Virus record (IMG/VR): IMGVR_UViG_3300033150_000139
Span: 1 to 48,707 of that record
Strand: one strand, 5' to 3'
Source of the DNA: a virus
Length of the DNA: 48,707 nucleotides
A program made the translations under genes and the position numbers. Below the pieces are notes generated by a model. That model ran no database searches and was not told where the DNA came from. It worked only from the letters and a program-made list of their open reading frames with translations. This document shows positions 4,802-48,151 of this stretch, piece by piece (within the stretch, counting starts at the first letter, position 1; the number at the start of each line of letters is the position of its first letter).

Positions 4802-7233
4802 AAAAAGTAAACATAAACATATCATCTGCAGGGTTTCCTAGTCAATTTGTATCGGATGCTGAAAAGGCTACTGACGAATTTGGGTTACAAATTGGTCAAG
4901 CAATTCAATATGAATGGTTCAAAAAAGATGGAAATAGTTGCAGGTACTATAGTCAATGGAGAGACTTTCATAGACTAAAATTATACGCAAGAGGAGAACA
5001 GGGTACAGGTAAATATAAAAACGAATTAGCTATTGACGGTGATTTGTCTTATCTAAATTTAGATTGGACACCTGTTCCTATTTTACCAAAGTTTGTTGAC
5101 ATTGTTGTCAATGGAATGCAAGACAGAGAGTTTCACGTTAAAGCTTATGCTCAGGATGCTATGTCTCAATCCAAGAGAAGTAAGTATCAACAAATGATAG
5201 AAGGTCAAATGGTTGCAAAACCAATGCTCGAAACTATACAACAAAAAACAGGAGCAAATCCATTTACTGTAGACCCTGAAGAATTACCCAACTCAGATGA
5301 GGAGTTGAAATTGTATATGCAGCTTAACTATAAACCTGCAATTGAAATTGCTAATGAACAAGCAATTAATACTATGTTTGAGTCAAACAAGTATAATGAT
5401 ATTAGAAAGCAGTTAGATTATGATATGACTGTTTTAGGAATAGCTTGTGCAAAACACGAGTTTTTACCGGGGGATGGAGTTAACATTAAGTATGTTGACC
5501 CTGCTAATATTGTATACAGTTATACAGAAGACCCACATTTTAAAGATTGTTTCTATTGGGGTGAAATTAAAACTGTTCCAATTATTGAATTAAAAAAAAT
5601 AGATACTTCTTTAACTAATGAAGATTTAGAAGAAATTTCAAATTATTCTCAAAGTTGGTTTGATTATTTTAATGTGGCTCAATTTTATGAGAATGATATT
5701 TTCTACAAAGACACGGCAACATTAATGTATTTCAATTATAAGACTACCAAAAAAGTAACTTATAAAAGAAAGGTGAAAGAAAACGGAAACGTAAGTATGA
5801 TTGAAAAGGATGACCAATTCAATCCACCTCTTGAAATGCAAGAAGAAGGAAACTTTGAAAAGGTACAGAAAACTATTGATGTATGGTATGAAGGTGTAAT
5901 GGTTATGGGTACTAACATAATGCTTGAATGGAAGCTTATGGAAAATATGGTTAGACCACAATCAGCTACACAACACGCAATGCCAAACTATGTGGCAGTA
6001 GCACCTAGAATGTATAAAGGTGTTATTGAATCTTTAGTTAGAAGAATGATTCCTTTTGCTGATTTGATTCAGATTACACATTTAAAACTACAACAAGTAA
6101 TATCAAGAGTTGTACCGGATGGTGTATTTATTGATGCCGATGGTTTAAATGAAGTTGATATTGGTACAGGTAATGCATATAATCCTGAAGATGCTTTAAG
6201 ATTGTATTTTCAAACAGGTTCTGTTATTGGTAGAAGTTACACACAAGAGGGTGATTACAACCAAGGCAAGATGCCTATCAAAGAACTTACATCTAATTCA
6301 GGTGCAGCAAAAACACAGATGTTGATTAGTAATTATAATCATTACTTAAATCAAATCAGAACTGTAACAGGATTAAATGAAGCAAGAGATGGAAGTTCAC
6401 CTGACCCTAATTCATTAGTTGGGTTGCAAAAACTTGCTGCTTTAAATTCTAATGTAGCTACTAGACACATACTAGATGGAAGTCTTTATATATACAGAAC
6501 TTTAGCTGAAGCCTTAACTTATAGGGTCGCAGACATTTTGGAATATTCAGACTTTAAAGATGAGTTTATAAATCAAATAGGAAAGTACAACGTCTCTATA
6601 CTTGGAGACATTTCAGATTTGTATATATATGATTTTGGTATTTTTATTGAGTTGTCTCCTGATGAGGAACAAAAACAACAACTAGAAGCTAACATACAAA
6701 TGGCATTATCTAAGAATGATATTAACTTAGAAGATGCTATAGATATTCGTGAGATTAAAAATCTAAAACTTGCTAACCAACTTTTAAAATTAAAAAGAGT
6801 TTCTAAGCAAGATAGAGAGGAAAAGATGCAAATGCAACAACAAGCTATGCAGCAACAATCTCAATTGAAGTCTCAAGAAATGGCTGCACAAGTTGCTATG
6901 CAAAAATTGCAAATGGAAACTCAAGCTAAGATGCAATATAGACAAGCTGATATTGCGTTTGAAATTGAAAAACTAAAAGCCGAAGCTGATTTAAAATCTC
7001 GATTGATGCAGCAAGAGTTTGAACTTAATTTACAGTTAAGGGCAATGGATGCACAACAACTATCTTCTAGAGAAGATAAAAGAGAGAAAGCAAAATCAGA
7101 AAGAATATCTCAACAGAACACAGAACAATCACAGTTAATAAACCAAAGAAAAAATAATCTACCTCCAAAGAACTTTGAATCTAATGAGGATAGTTTAGAT
7201 GGTTTTGATTTAGCTGAGTTTAACCCAAGATAA
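4798..7233 (+). CDS. Portal protein
   Basis: An 811-residue protein directly after the terminase (ATGA overlap), the classical place for the portal ring through which DNA enters and leaves the capsid. The N-terminal third includes the aromatic-rich stretch LYARGEQGTGKYKNELAI, then DLSYLNLDWTPVPILPKFVD, a pattern I associate with portals of short-tailed Bacteroidetes phages. The long stretch from about residue 640 to 770 is a glutamine- and methionine-rich helix or coiled coil that matches the barrel and clip helices of large podovirus portals. The C-terminus is disordered and acidic. The next gene has its own promoter. Confidence 0.8.
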   Translation: MKKVNINISSAGFPSQFVSDAEKATDEFGLQIGQAIQYEWFKKDGNSCRYYSQWRDFHRLKLYARGEQGTGKYKNELAIDGDLSYLNLDWTPVPILPKFVDIVVNGMQDREFHVKAYAQDAMSQSKRSKYQQMIEGQMVAKPMLETIQQKTGANPFTVDPEELPNSDEELKLYMQLNYKPAIEIANEQAINTMFESNKYNDIRKQLDYDMTVLGIACAKHEFLPGDGVNIKYVDPANIVYSYTEDPHFKDCFYWGEIKTVPIIELKKIDTSLTNEDLEEISNYSQSWFDYFNVAQFYENDIFYKDTATLMYFNYKTTKKVTYKRKVKENGNVSMIEKDDQFNPPLEMQEEGNFEKVQKTIDVWYEGVMVMGTNIMLEWKLMENMVRPQSATQHAMPNYVAVAPRMYKGVIESLVRRMIPFADLIQITHLKLQQVISRVVPDGVFIDADGLNEVDIGTGNAYNPEDALRLYFQTGSVIGRSYTQEGDYNQGKMPIKELTSNSGAAKTQMLISNYNHYLNQIRTVTGLNEARDGSSPDPNSLVGLQKLAALNSNVATRHILDGSLYIYRTLAEALTYRVADILEYSDFKDEFINQIGKYNVSILGDISDLYIYDFGIFIELSPDEEQKQQLEANIQMALSKNDINLEDAIDIREIKNLKLANQLLKLKRVSKQDREEKMQMQQQAMQQQSQLKSQEMAAQVAMQKLQMETQAKMQYRQADIAFEIEKLKAEADLKSRLMQQEFELNLQLRAMDAQQLSSREDKREKAKSERISQQNTEQSQLINQRKNNLPPKNFESNEDSLDGFDLAEFNPR

Positions 7234-42691: not shown

Positions 42692-43759
42692 TTATTCATT
42701 AAACTTTAATACTTCATCTTCCTTGAACCAACCACCACAAGATGAGCAGTAGTAGTTGTGAAATGCATCGTGTTCCAAGTCATTGAAACAATCTACACAA
42801 GTTGGTGTGATTTCAGTTGGAAAGTCATTGTCATCCCAACCAATGTCGATTGCCTCGTGATACTCTGTGGTATCATAAGTTGGCTCAACATCTGCAAAAG
42901 TAAATTGTTGAGGTCTGATTACTCTTTCAAAAGATTCGTGATACTCTTTACCCTCGATGTCTTTCGGATTGAAATACAACCAACAATTAAGTGTACGATT
43001 CTTTAGCTTGATTGGTATTTGCTTACGCTTGTACCATCGTGGATGCCCTTCAAGTTGGTCAATCTTTTTCAGTTGTGCATCCGATACTTTGAACACATCA
43101 ACAACCACATTGTGACCGACTCCTTTCTTGTCTACCATATAAGGTAAACCCTCAACCAACAAAGGATACTTGTCTTGAGTCTTCCCTCTACCCAAATGCT
43201 TTGCATTGGTTAGGTAAGAGTAATAGTTTCCGAAACCTTTCTTTAGTGTACCATACACTGCAATAAGATTGTCTTGCAACACATTGGCTTTGGAATACCA
43301 AATGCCATCTCGATAAGTGTAGAGGTTTCTGTTATAGATTTGAAATGAACGAGTACGCACATTGATTGAAACAAATCGTGAGTCATACTGCTCCAATTCT
43401 TTTTTCCAATCTCTACGGTTGATGTTACCTAAGTGACAAGCTAACTCTTTGCTATCACAACATTCATCTGTACCCATACCTTTGATAGTACCGTTGTGCA
43501 TTAGGTATTCATCTTTGTTGTTGCCACATACAAATGGATGCGTGTTGGCTCTGTTGATTTTACCCTTTGTTGCATAACGAAAGTGAGCAATGAATGGTCG
43601 CTTAGTTAGTAGCTTACGATAGTCTTTTGATTTGTGATACTCGACTTCAAAAGTATCTAGCCAAATGATTCCCAATCCGTGAGGATTGATTCGTGATGAG
43701 GTCTTGGCTACTTCCTCTGACATCACATTGTTTTTCTGCTTAATAATAATTACGCACAT
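42692..43759 (-). CDS. Class II glutamine amidotransferase fused to GGCT-like domain and zinc ribbon
   Basis: A 355-residue fusion. The N-terminal nucleophile C2 (MCVIII), IAHFRYATKG (57-66), NTHPF (72-76) and MHNGTI (87-92) are class II amidotransferase motifs, which release ammonia from glutamine. From about 164 follows a gamma-glutamylcyclotransferase/AIG2-like domain: VYGTLKKG (168-175), LLVEGLPYMV, VVDVFKVSDAQLKKIDQLEGHPRWYKR, with E237 in the D-x-x-E-G motif. The C-terminus has CVDC and CSSC, a zinc ribbon. Cyclotransferase cleaves gamma-glutamyl amide bonds. With the amidoligase at 45475-46431 this set can make and remove such bonds on peptides. It leads its own unit from a promoter at 43823-43854. 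Confidence 0.83.
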   Translation of the reverse strand: MCVIIIKQKNNVMSEEVAKTSSRINPHGLGIIWLDTFEVEYHKSKDYRKLLTKRPFIAHFRYATKGKINRANTHPFVCGNNKDEYLMHNGTIKGMGTDECCDSKELACHLGNINRRDWKKELEQYDSRFVSINVRTRSFQIYNRNLYTYRDGIWYSKANVLQDNLIAVYGTLKKGFGNYYSYLTNAKHLGRGKTQDKYPLLVEGLPYMVDKKGVGHNVVVDVFKVSDAQLKKIDQLEGHPRWYKRKQIPIKLKNRTLNCWLYFNPKDIEGKEYHESFERVIRPQQFTFADVEPTYDTTEYHEAIDIGWDDNDFPTEITPTCVDCFNDLEHDAFHNYYCSSCGGWFKEDEVLKFNE

Positions 43760-44964: not shown

Positions 44965-45132
44965 TTATTTAGATTTAACTGCTGTAAATTTTTCTCTTAC
45001 AATCCACTTGTATCTACCAATGTTTTCATTGTAAACTCTGTCGATTGCCTCAAATTTGGTATGTGCAGGGATGACTTTGATTAGTCTCCCTGCATACCTT
45101 ACATTGAAATAGTGTTGTCTCTCTCTATGCAT
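44965..45132 (-). CDS. Very small basic protein
   Basis: A 55-residue protein (MHRERQHYFNVRYAGRLIKV, ending WIVREKFTAVKSK). It fills the gap between the membrane protein and the next gene, starting inside the end of the membrane-protein gene (8-base overlap, ATGCATAG). Codon use and beta pattern (FNVRYAGRLIKVIPA) look like real coding sequence. It is below the length limit of usual gene finding. Confidence 0.5.
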   Translation of the reverse strand: MHRERQHYFNVRYAGRLIKVIPAHTKFEAIDRVYNENIGRYKWIVREKFTAVKSK

Positions 45133-45361
45133 TGTGTCTCTCTTTTATGTCAGCAATGATTAGACTTATTGTTGCCCACATACAGAACAACAAGAATGCT
45201 GATACGATTAACATTGATACTGCACCACTAAACGATTGGAACAATTGTCTAGCATCGTTTAAAATGATGTGAGTAAATAACCTACCCACCATTGAGAACA
45301 CACCTAGTGTTACGATTACATACAGAGTAGACTCTGCATAATTAAGAATTGATTTTTTCAT
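45125..45361 (-). CDS. Two-helix membrane protein, possible holin
   Basis: A 78-residue protein with two hydrophobic segments, TLYVIVTLGVFSMVGRLFTHII and AVSMLIVSAFLLFCMWATISLIIA, and charged ends (MKKS, DIKERHNA). Size and topology fit a class II holin, and the endolysin is 0.7 kb downstream in the same operon. No sequence identifies it for certain. Its leader contains a hammerhead ribozyme that ends 27 bases before the ATG, so the gene is probably translated from a self-cleaved transcript. Confidence 0.6.
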   Translation of the reverse strand: MKKSILNYAESTLYVIVTLGVFSMVGRLFTHIILNDARQLFQSFSGAVSMLIVSAFLLFCMWATISLIIADIKERHNA

Positions 45362-45388
45362 CTTGATTGAATTTAAAATTTAATTGTT

Positions 45389-45439
45389 TCTGTTTCGTTC
45401 TTTTGAACTCATCAGTGAGGACACTCATCCTCAGACAGA
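45389..45439 (-). ncRNA. Type III hammerhead self-cleaving ribozyme
   Basis: Minus strand, 5' to 3'. Stem III: TCTGT (45439-45435) with ACAGA (45393-45389). Cleavage after C at 45434 in GUC. Stem I: TGAGGA (45433-45428) with TCCTCA (45421-45416), six-base loop TGAGTG. Core CTGATGA (45415-45409). Stem II: GTTC (45408-45405) with GAAC (45400-45397), loop AAAA. Core GAA (45396-45394), then the A of stem III. Every core base of the family is present and all three stems pair perfectly. It lies between the amidoligase and the membrane-protein gene, directly after a palindrome hairpin. Self-cleavage would separate the two messages. Confidence 0.9.
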
Positions 45440-45445
45440 GGAGTA

Positions 45446-45461
45446 GTGTCTTTGAAGACAC
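45446..45461. repeat. 16-bp palindrome copy beside the hammerhead ribozyme
   Basis: Exact copy in sense orientation. Flanks AGGGGTA and TACTCCT (minus strand) pair (one G-T wobble), giving a stem of 14 pairs. It lies between the amidoligase stop and the ribozyme. Confidence 0.92.
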
Positions 45462-45474
45462 TACCCCTTTGAGA

Positions 45475-46431
45475 TTAGATTGCTCTGTACCCATTTCTGA
45501 GTAACTCTCTATCGTACCACTTCTGTGCATCGAGTCTTCGCATTGGGTCAACTAGGTCGATGACATTACGATTTACTTTGTTGGTCAGAACCATTTTTCT
45601 GAAATGCTTTGCCAACTCGAACTTCTCTGCAACCTTATCCATATCGCCATTGTACATAGACTTAACGATTGGTGTGATTCGCTTTAGGAACGTATTGAAA
45701 TTGCCATTAGGATTGTTGATGCTAAAGTCAAGCAACTCATAGAACAACTCGTATCTTCTCATCATCTGCTTTACAGATTGGAAACGAGATACAACTCGGA
45801 ACTCGATTACATTCCCTTTGACAAGACAGAATTGGTATCTACTGTACGCATCACCCCACATCATCTGTGGAGCATCTGCAGGTAGCATTGTCATATTACC
45901 TTTGCAGTAGCTATTTCTTAGTCTCTTGTAGAACAGAGAATGCAAGATTGCAACATTCTTGCGAACTGCATTTGCTATCTGTTCGCCACTCATACCCTCA
46001 ACTCCGATAGTAACGTGACCACCACATCTGATGTCACTAGGAGAGTATTGGTCTTCGATTACTTTTCTAGCTTCAAACATCATATTGAAAACTTTGTTTC
46101 TCCACTTACCACTAGGTAGTAATGGTAGAATGTTTGTAATAGCTTCATAGCCACAAGAGGAGTCTCTCTCAAATCCCTTGAACAGAGGATATTCTTTTAC
46201 TGCTCCTCGTGAGAGTCTGTTCTTCTCGATTTCAATACCGATAGTAAACTTAGACTTAGTGTCTCCATTCTCATCTAGGAGAAGATTTCGCTTTTTGCTA
46301 GATTTCAAGTTAGCAATATCGCTAGTCTTAGCACCTTTGTGCATCTCTCTAGGATTTGGACTTCTGTGGTATCCTGACATAGAATTTCTTCCGTAGTCAT
46401 TACTGATTGTGTATGTGATTTCGTTTGACAT
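45475..46431 (-). CDS. Amidoligase (glutamine synthetase-like fold)
   Basis: A 318-residue protein with the amidoligase signatures in order: TIGIEIE (63-69), ERDSSCGYEAITNILPL (88-104; metal-binding D and E), RCGGHVTIG (135-143), the LRNSYC region near 171-176, and VIEFRVVSRF (208-217) with the E-x-R. The family uses ATP to form amide bonds between amino groups and carboxylates, for example adding glutamate or amines to peptides or the cell wall. The ATG at 46431 is chosen because the upstream frame is palindrome sequence. It shares the operon with the possible holin and endolysin, and the amidotransferase-cyclotransferase fusion lies 1.7 kb further on. Confidence 0.8.
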   Translation of the reverse strand: MSNEITYTISNDYGRNSMSGYHRSPNPREMHKGAKTSDIANLKSSKKRNLLLDENGDTKSKFTIGIEIEKNRLSRGAVKEYPLFKGFERDSSCGYEAITNILPLLPSGKWRNKVFNMMFEARKVIEDQYSPSDIRCGGHVTIGVEGMSGEQIANAVRKNVAILHSLFYKRLRNSYCKGNMTMLPADAPQMMWGDAYSRYQFCLVKGNVIEFRVVSRFQSVKQMMRRYELFYELLDFSINNPNGNFNTFLKRITPIVKSMYNGDMDKVAEKFELAKHFRKMVLTNKVNRNVIDLVDPMRRLDAQKWYDRELLRNGYRAI

Positions 46432-46448
46432 AATATCTGTGGTTTTTT

Positions 46449-46464
46449 GTGTCTTTGAAGACAC
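46449..46464. repeat. 16-bp palindrome copy before the amidoligase gene
   Basis: Exact copy in sense orientation in the short gap between the 214-residue gene stop (46468) and the amidoligase start (46431). Confidence 0.9.
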
Positions 46465-47906: not shown

Positions 47907-47907
47907 G

Positions 47908-47993
47908 TATCGGGTATCGGACTCGAACCGATACGAGCATTACTGCTCAACAGATTTTAAGTCTGTCGTGTCTACCACTTTCACCAACCCGAC
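47908..47993 (-). tRNA. tRNA-Leu (anticodon UAA)
   Basis: Minus strand, 86 bases. Acceptor GTCGGGT pairs with ACCCGAT (one G-T). D arm with GGTGAAAGTGGT, anticodon loop CTTAAAA within CAGA/TCTG pairs, long variable arm (TGAGCAGTAATGCTCG) typical of leucine tRNA, T arm TCGG with TTCGAGT. Anticodon TAA. CCA is not encoded. Reads UUA, the most common leucine codon in this DNA by eye. Confidence 0.92.
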
Positions 47994-47996
47994 AAC

Positions 47997-48070
47997 TCCT
48001 CACTGTAGGATTTGAACCTACGACCTTCACCGTATAAGGGTGCTACTCTAACCAACTGAGTTAAGTGAGG
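47997..48070 (-). tRNA. tRNA-Ile (anticodon UAU)
   Basis: Minus strand, 74 bases. Acceptor CCTCACT pairs with AGTGAGG, D arm ACTC...GAGT, anticodon loop CTTATAC with U33 and anticodon TAT, T arm GTAGG/CCTAC with TTCAAAT. The anticodon stem has one G-A mismatch at its far end. Reads AUA directly, not by the usual lysidine-modified CAU form. Confidence 0.88.
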
Positions 48071-48077
48071 TAGTTAG

Positions 48078-48151
48078 TACACCCTATAGGACTCGAACCT
48101 ATAACCTATACATTAGAAGTGTATTGCTCTATCCAATTGAGCTAAGGGTGC
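48078..48151 (-). tRNA. tRNA-Arg (anticodon UCU)
   Basis: Minus strand, 74 bases. Acceptor GCACCCT pairs with AGGGTGT (one G-T), D arm AGCTCAATTGGATAGAGC, anticodon stem ATACA/TGTAT with loop CTTCTAA and anticodon TCT, T arm TATAGG/CCTATA with TTCGAGT. Reads AGA, by far the preferred arginine codon here. Confidence 0.92.

Follow-up and report, generated by a model that had tools for sequence, protein, structure and literature searches.

What does a self-cleaving RNA do between two genes that a phage transcribes in the same direction? The question is raised by a window of 48,707 bases, the whole of a linear virus record that is itself a fragment, in which the plus strand carries structural-type genes as far as about 31 kb and the minus strand replication-type genes over the remainder, from about 31 to 48.7 kb. 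In the minus-strand series a first-pass annotation had noticed a complete type III hammerhead ribozyme (HHR) on the transcribed strand at 45389-45439, between an "amidoligase" and a "holin-like" gene, placed to split one message in two. The ribozyme is borne out by its exact sequence and coordinates, a match to RF00008 and covariation, and its placement by the co-directional minus-strand ORFs on either side. The further description of the site as an early phage leader is not supported, as the HHR is an intergenic element inside the minus-strand gene series. Of the two gene labels, "amidoligase" reflects a weak match to PHROG 2443 (E 0.028; 28 homologues in IMG/VR), and "holin-like", given to a 78-aa protein with no Pfam or PHROG match on its size and two hydrophobic stretches only, is unproven. 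The elements of the locus are as follows.

45125..45361, minus: downstream gene, 78-aa ORF with two hydrophobic stretches by hydropathy
45362..45433, minus: predicted 5' UTR that cleavage would give the downstream message, 72 nt by coordinates, stem I first
45389..45439, minus: type III hammerhead ribozyme (RF00008 match; covariation in 15 syntenic copies)
45394-45396, minus: core GAA (G12-A14)
45397-45408, minus: stem II, GUUC-AAAA-GAAC, 4 bp with an AAAA loop
45409..45415, minus: core CUGAUGA (C3-A9), kept in nearly all relatives
45416..45433, minus: stem I hairpin, UGAGGA-UGAGUG-UCCUCA, 6 bp with a 6-nt loop I at 45422-45427
45434/45433, minus: predicted cleavage, between C17 (45434) and U1.1 (45433)
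45435..45439, minus: stem III 5' strand, UCUGU, pairing over 5 bp with 45389-45393
45440..45467, minus: 12-bp hairpin, GGGGUAGUGUCU-UCAA-AGACACUACUCC, abutting stem III and holding a palindrome copy at 45446-45461
45475..46464, minus: amidoligase-like upstream gene, ORF from GTG, likely ATG start at 46431

The ribozyme and its conserved structure

Read on the minus strand from 45439 to 45389, the ribozyme is UCUGU C / UGAGGA UGAGUG UCCUCA CUGAUGA GUUC AAAA GAAC GAA ACAGA, the slash marking the predicted cut. It holds the whole conserved core (C3 U4 G5 A6 N7 G8 A9, G12 A13 A14, A15.1-U16.1 and H17), with a GUC cleavage triplet in which A15.1-U16.1 and C17 are canonical. Stems III, I and II are 5, 6 and 4 bp, and the topology is that of type III, with loops closing stems I and II and stem III open. 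The RF00008 (Hammerhead_3) model matches end to end over all 54 positions at 47.5 bits (E 9e-10 in a 221-nt stretch, 4.7e-11 in the whole-genome search); topology and full core are shared with the family, whereas the window copy departs from its consensus in a longer loop I and a shorter loop II. Although every feature of core and stems is present, the score lies below the curated gathering threshold (47.5 vs 48.5 bits), and a default Rfam scan is silent on this HHR because of that one bit. A structural search of both strands found one HHR in the window and none in 60 Markov-simulated windows, and neither this search nor the RF00008 genome search yielded a second HHR in the window.

We gathered relatives, 28 IMG/VR virus contigs in all, by homology to the amidoligase-like protein, and aligned 15 distinct syntenic copies of the HHR. 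In this alignment 98.7% of cells pair, and 9 of 15 pairs show compensatory (two-sided) changes, which number 56 cells against 16.8 in shuffles. The covariation score is 0.67, compared with 0.21 in shuffles, and 0 of 500 shuffles reached this value or the fraction of cells paired. Stem I has compensatory change at all six pairs and stem II has such changes as well, while the stem III 5' strand is 100% paired in alignment A1, with both sides of its outer pair varying. This pairing and covariation indicate that the HHR structure is under selection. As judged by sequence comparison the evidence for the structure is decisive, and 45389-45439 (minus strand) is on that footing confirmed as a canonical, genuine type III HHR. 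Folded alone, the HHR has the hammerhead as its minimum-energy fold (-14.3 kcal/mol). With its flanks, however, a rival fold in which the core CUG pairs with a 3' CAG is about 3 kcal/mol better (-35.2 vs -32.0), by nearest-neighbour secondary-structure energies that leave out tertiary contacts and co-transcriptional folding.

RF00008 matches (E <= 0.1) occur in 23 of the 28 related contigs; seven of these carry three matches each, against one HHR in the window. The weak matches, at 15.9-21.7 bits, include that of L009, which inspection of the sequence shows to be a canonical hammerhead. When the region following the amidoligase stop is read in all 28 contigs, most have a canonical-core hammerhead there. 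The HHRs of L012 and L015 were missed by Rfam and fit a relaxed structural search; like those of L007, L008 and L016, they have a U10.1-U11.1 mismatch, and that of L005 has a core change, A9U. With the A9U change and several such mismatches, activity may not persist in all relatives. The mismatch is reported as tolerated (PMC3088659). The junction is without a hammerhead in five contigs, with a different hairpin motif in L010 and L014 and a tRNA-like sequence in L017, L018 and L021. Judged by primase, the isolates closest to the window are ones that infect Flavobacterium, with some 40% identity across one third of the protein, and among named relatives an amidoligase homologue was found only in MW202828 (40% identity), which is without the palindrome described below.

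The window HHR belongs to the already known clustered phage hammerheads (PMC3088659), a precedent missed by the first-pass annotation, along with the 12-bp upstream hairpin and the multi-copy relatives. The reading given in that annotation is partly supported. Perreault et al. (2011; PMC3088659) described phage and prophage hammerheads, frequently more than one of them bordering a gene or a short gene block, and proposed that they process long phage transcripts; the tandem arrays that they tested were cleaved both in vitro and within E. coli. The window HHR likewise lies between co-directional phage genes, and our set shares with theirs the position at operon gene junctions, the U10.1-U11.1 mismatch and, in the relatives with three matches, the multiple copies; it differs in being an amidoligase-linked syntenic series with covariation and, in most copies, a hairpin abutting stem III. 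The HHphage hammerhead of Haloviruses HF1/HF2 (PMC3088659) also lies just before a start codon, but it is a high-salt variant from viruses that infect halophilic archaea, lying 13 nt ahead of a helicase gene, whereas the window HHR has a canonical core and a distance of 72 nt. Theta ribozymes of gut phages (PMC10879173) are likewise small, self-cleaving and proposed to process phage RNA; in contrast to the window's hammerhead between protein genes, they have an HDV-like fold and cut at tRNA 3' ends.

The hairpin abutting stem III

The HHR forms a tandem with the hairpin directly before it. We scanned IMG/VR with a DNA pattern of the HHR core alone, hairpin excluded, which gave at least 120 stretches; the matches listed, together with the syntenic set, make up 129 distinct phage HHRs, and since the collection derives from a sequence pattern and one gene family its frequencies are not unbiased for all phages. 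Hairpins were ranked by a simple score devised for this analysis, and the contrast is large enough not to hinge on it. Among these 129 HHRs (matches listed), 81% have a hairpin scoring at least 7 and ending within 8 nt of stem III, whereas shuffling the upstream sequence leaves 2.5% and random positions give 4.7%; the gap to stem III is 0 nt in 75 of 104 and 1 nt in 18 of 104 of those among the matches listed. A stricter control, the intergenic 3' regions of HHR-free genes in the same loci, gave 7.5% when the distance was matched and 34% when any hairpin up to 56 nt from the stop was counted. At a score of at least 8 the figures are 74% of HHRs among the matches listed, against 4.8% and 19%, and the contrast with 3'-region hairpins has a Fisher p of 1e-30, which is too small since the loci are related. 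When hairpins made by the GTGTC-N6-GACAC repeat are excluded, 37 of 65 HHRs among the matches listed still score at least 8, and about one in five of the 129 is without an adjoining hairpin. An independent set of 103 HHRs from GTDB assemblies has the hairpin in 65%, versus 6% at random positions, with sequences unrelated to the phage ones. At the amidoligase junction itself the hairpin sequence varies while its pairing is kept (L009, L011, L012, L020).

An intrinsic terminator at 45440-45467 was ruled out, as the hairpin is without a T run. The text of PMC3088659 contains neither "terminator" nor "stem-loop", has one unrelated "upstream" and leaves an upstream hairpin unmentioned. Among the literature titles and abstracts searched, which mostly exclude subscription full texts, we found no description of a hairpin upstream of an HHR, and we claim no novelty for it.

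The two loops that would make the tertiary contact of a type III hammerhead, I (UGAGUG/UGUGUG/UGUGUA) and II (NAAA), show strong conservation across the 129 phage HHRs among the matches listed. In the same set the cleavage base and the stem II closing pair are coupled, C17 with G10.1-C11.1 in 70 of 71 and A17 with U10.1-U11.1 in 36 of 37 with A or C (Fisher 6e-19, kinship not corrected). Bacterial assemblies have the same hammerhead form in 74 stretches (GTDB contigs, L195-L274), many of which are labelled Patescibacteria, Saccharibacteria and Parcubacteria among them; a contig often has several HHRs, and a GUUCUUUGAA-like sequence often lies downstream. These stretches may be phage or chromosomal. 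Among the papers listed, none links hammerheads with Patescibacteria.

The palindrome within the window's hairpin is an exact 16-base near-palindrome, GTGTCTTCAAAGACAC, with 13 copies in and between genes of the window, where chance would give 0.7 even within 3 mismatches.

2779, 9922, 25255, 33676, plus: copies of GTGTCTTCAAAGACAC
37707, 39009, 40449, 42658, 43780, 44315, 45446, 46449, 47369, minus: copies of GTGTCTTCAAAGACAC

The form GTGTCTTNNAAGACAC has 1-15 copies in 27 of the 28 relatives (reversed-pattern control, zero), and other HHR-bearing phages have a repeated palindrome of their own, such as GAGGGT-N4-ACCCTC, nine times in L120. The palindrome looks like either a protein binding site or an RNA hairpin, its copies changing jointly within each genome.

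Gene borders and a proposed role of the tandem

The two sides of the junction differ in their constancy. All of the 25 relatives compared have a gene of one and the same family 5' of amidoligase, whereas their genes behind the HHR junction sort into 12 clusters. Among the matches listed, the 127 upstream genes form few large clusters (amidoligase-like, 40; gamma-glutamyl cyclotransferase/amidotransferase-like, 19) and 126 downstream genes form 83 clusters, 26 of them behind the 40 amidoligase-linked HHRs. Window ORF 42692-43759, with matches to Pfam GGACT and GATase_4, has homologues in the cyclotransferase/amidotransferase-like cluster. Because the upstream gene is conserved and the downstream gene is swapped, we conclude that the HHR belongs with the amidoligase 3' end and marks a border to changing small genes. 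Spacing is stereotyped as well: for phage HHRs among the matches listed a median of 34 nt, which the hairpin fills, separates the upstream stop from stem III, and a median of 68 nt (IQR 63-75) separates the cut from the start codon. In the window the latter distance is 72 nt to the ATG, in agreement with the earlier estimate of about 70 bases before the holin-like start.

Other elements occupy such borders. Mini tRNA-like elements of 41-60 nt, with an acceptor stem and T arm and no D or anticodon arm, number 14 against 1 in shuffled sequence, and several lie just before the amidoligase start; they are candidate RNase P / RNase Z processing sites. A second border hairpin motif, CUACCAACC..C-AGAAAC-G..GGGGAUUUGGUGGUAG, stands at the site where relatives have the hammerhead. 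It has no Rfam match in L010 and L014, where it is a candidate new structured RNA; its pattern matches 14 times in IMG/VR, four matches resembling the junction element and the rest coding or chance sequence.

L018:11549-11597, L025:5899-5940, L017:5907-5948, L019:5912-5958, L021:5914-5954 and 6916-6975, L079:4851-4891: mini tRNA-like elements
L010:6960-7010, L014:6950-7000, L181, L189: second border hairpin motif

The window also has three tRNA genes at 47907-48151 on the minus strand (Leu-UAA, Ile-UAU, Arg-UCU), upstream of the HHR and in the same direction; tRNA-Arg-UCU is kept in many relatives.

We propose, with a probability of roughly 0.7, that the amidoligase-like gene bears at its 3' end a message-processing element made up of the genuine HHR and the hairpin directly 5' of it. 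Hammerhead cleavage leaves a 2',3'-cyclic phosphate on the upstream product and a 5'-OH on the downstream one, as the first-pass annotation had rightly stated. While the minus-strand series is being transcribed, the RNA would cut itself after C17 (45434), giving two messages. The upstream message would end in the 12-bp hairpin and a tail of about six nucleotides bearing the cyclic phosphate, an end resembling the product of an intrinsic terminator, yet transcription would continue; the downstream message would have its 5'-OH end immediately at stem I. The two structured ends would probably be shielded from exonucleases and end-dependent RNases, and such protection by structure is plausible from general knowledge of bacterial RNA decay. 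We infer that cleavage takes place in the cell, that the ends are protected and that this matters for expressing a conserved upstream gene beside changing downstream ones. The full-length Rfam match, the HHRs in relatives, covariation, stereotyped spacing, the adjoining hairpin in two HHR sets, its pairing-kept variants, the conserved upstream and swapped downstream genes and the tested cleavage of tandem phage arrays (PMC3088659) all support a processing element; the better rival fold with flanks, the hairpin-free HHRs, the A9U change, the U10.1-U11.1 mismatches and the HHR-free junctions speak against it.

Among other roles, the hairpin could be a folding insulator, stacking on stem III and keeping upstream coding RNA off a stem that is short, open and usually only 3-7 bp in HHRs among the matches listed; its task would then be to let the ribozyme fold rather than to protect a 3' end. 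We consider this unlikely, though the strongest competitor: the 0- or 1-nt gaps are as expected for coaxial stacking, but the palindrome also stands alone at HHR-free junctions, which stacking leaves unexplained. Insulation and 3'-end protection may both hold, and a zero gap suits either equally. Distinctly less probable is that the HHR serves the downstream gene, the cut setting a 5'-OH leader that alters stability or translation of the holin-like message. The tight cut-to-start spacing fits this, as do eight HHRs among the matches listed that share the window's downstream family; such spacing may, however, only reflect a compact leader, and the downstream gene is replaced repeatedly while the 5' neighbour stays constant and the HHR stays behind amidoligase. 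The holin-like gene, earlier named as the controlled target, is accordingly rejected as the leading view of what the HHR is for.

It is very improbable that the HHR is a relic, decaying or without function, that travels with the gene: L005 and the HHR-free junctions could be so read, but drift would not maintain a mostly intact core and three stems that covary over 15 copies. Least credible is that the HHR helps to produce small circular RNAs, with adjacent copies being cleaved and ligated to each other. Several relatives do have three copies inside a few kb, and plant-retrozyme hammerheads are reported to act in this way (PMC4918200); the window has a single copy, however, and spliced or circular products of phage arrays were not detectable (Perreault et al., PMC3088659).

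Message ends at phage gene borders

The type III HHRs of phages and of small-genome bacteria might tentatively be seen, at somewhat below even odds, as one half of a general two-part maker of 3' ends, a strong hairpin being the other; in these phages it would be interchangeable at gene borders with further processing elements, tRNA-like minihelices cut by host RNases for instance, and would serve as operon punctuation. Routine Rfam annotation can overlook such ribozymes by about one bit. For phage hammerheads, transcript trimming at gene borders has already been proposed and never settled. With copies in synteny, a conserved hairpin and a place where a conserved gene gives way to a changing one, this proposal becomes a concrete, testable function, protected message ends at gene borders, for which natural test variants exist in large number.
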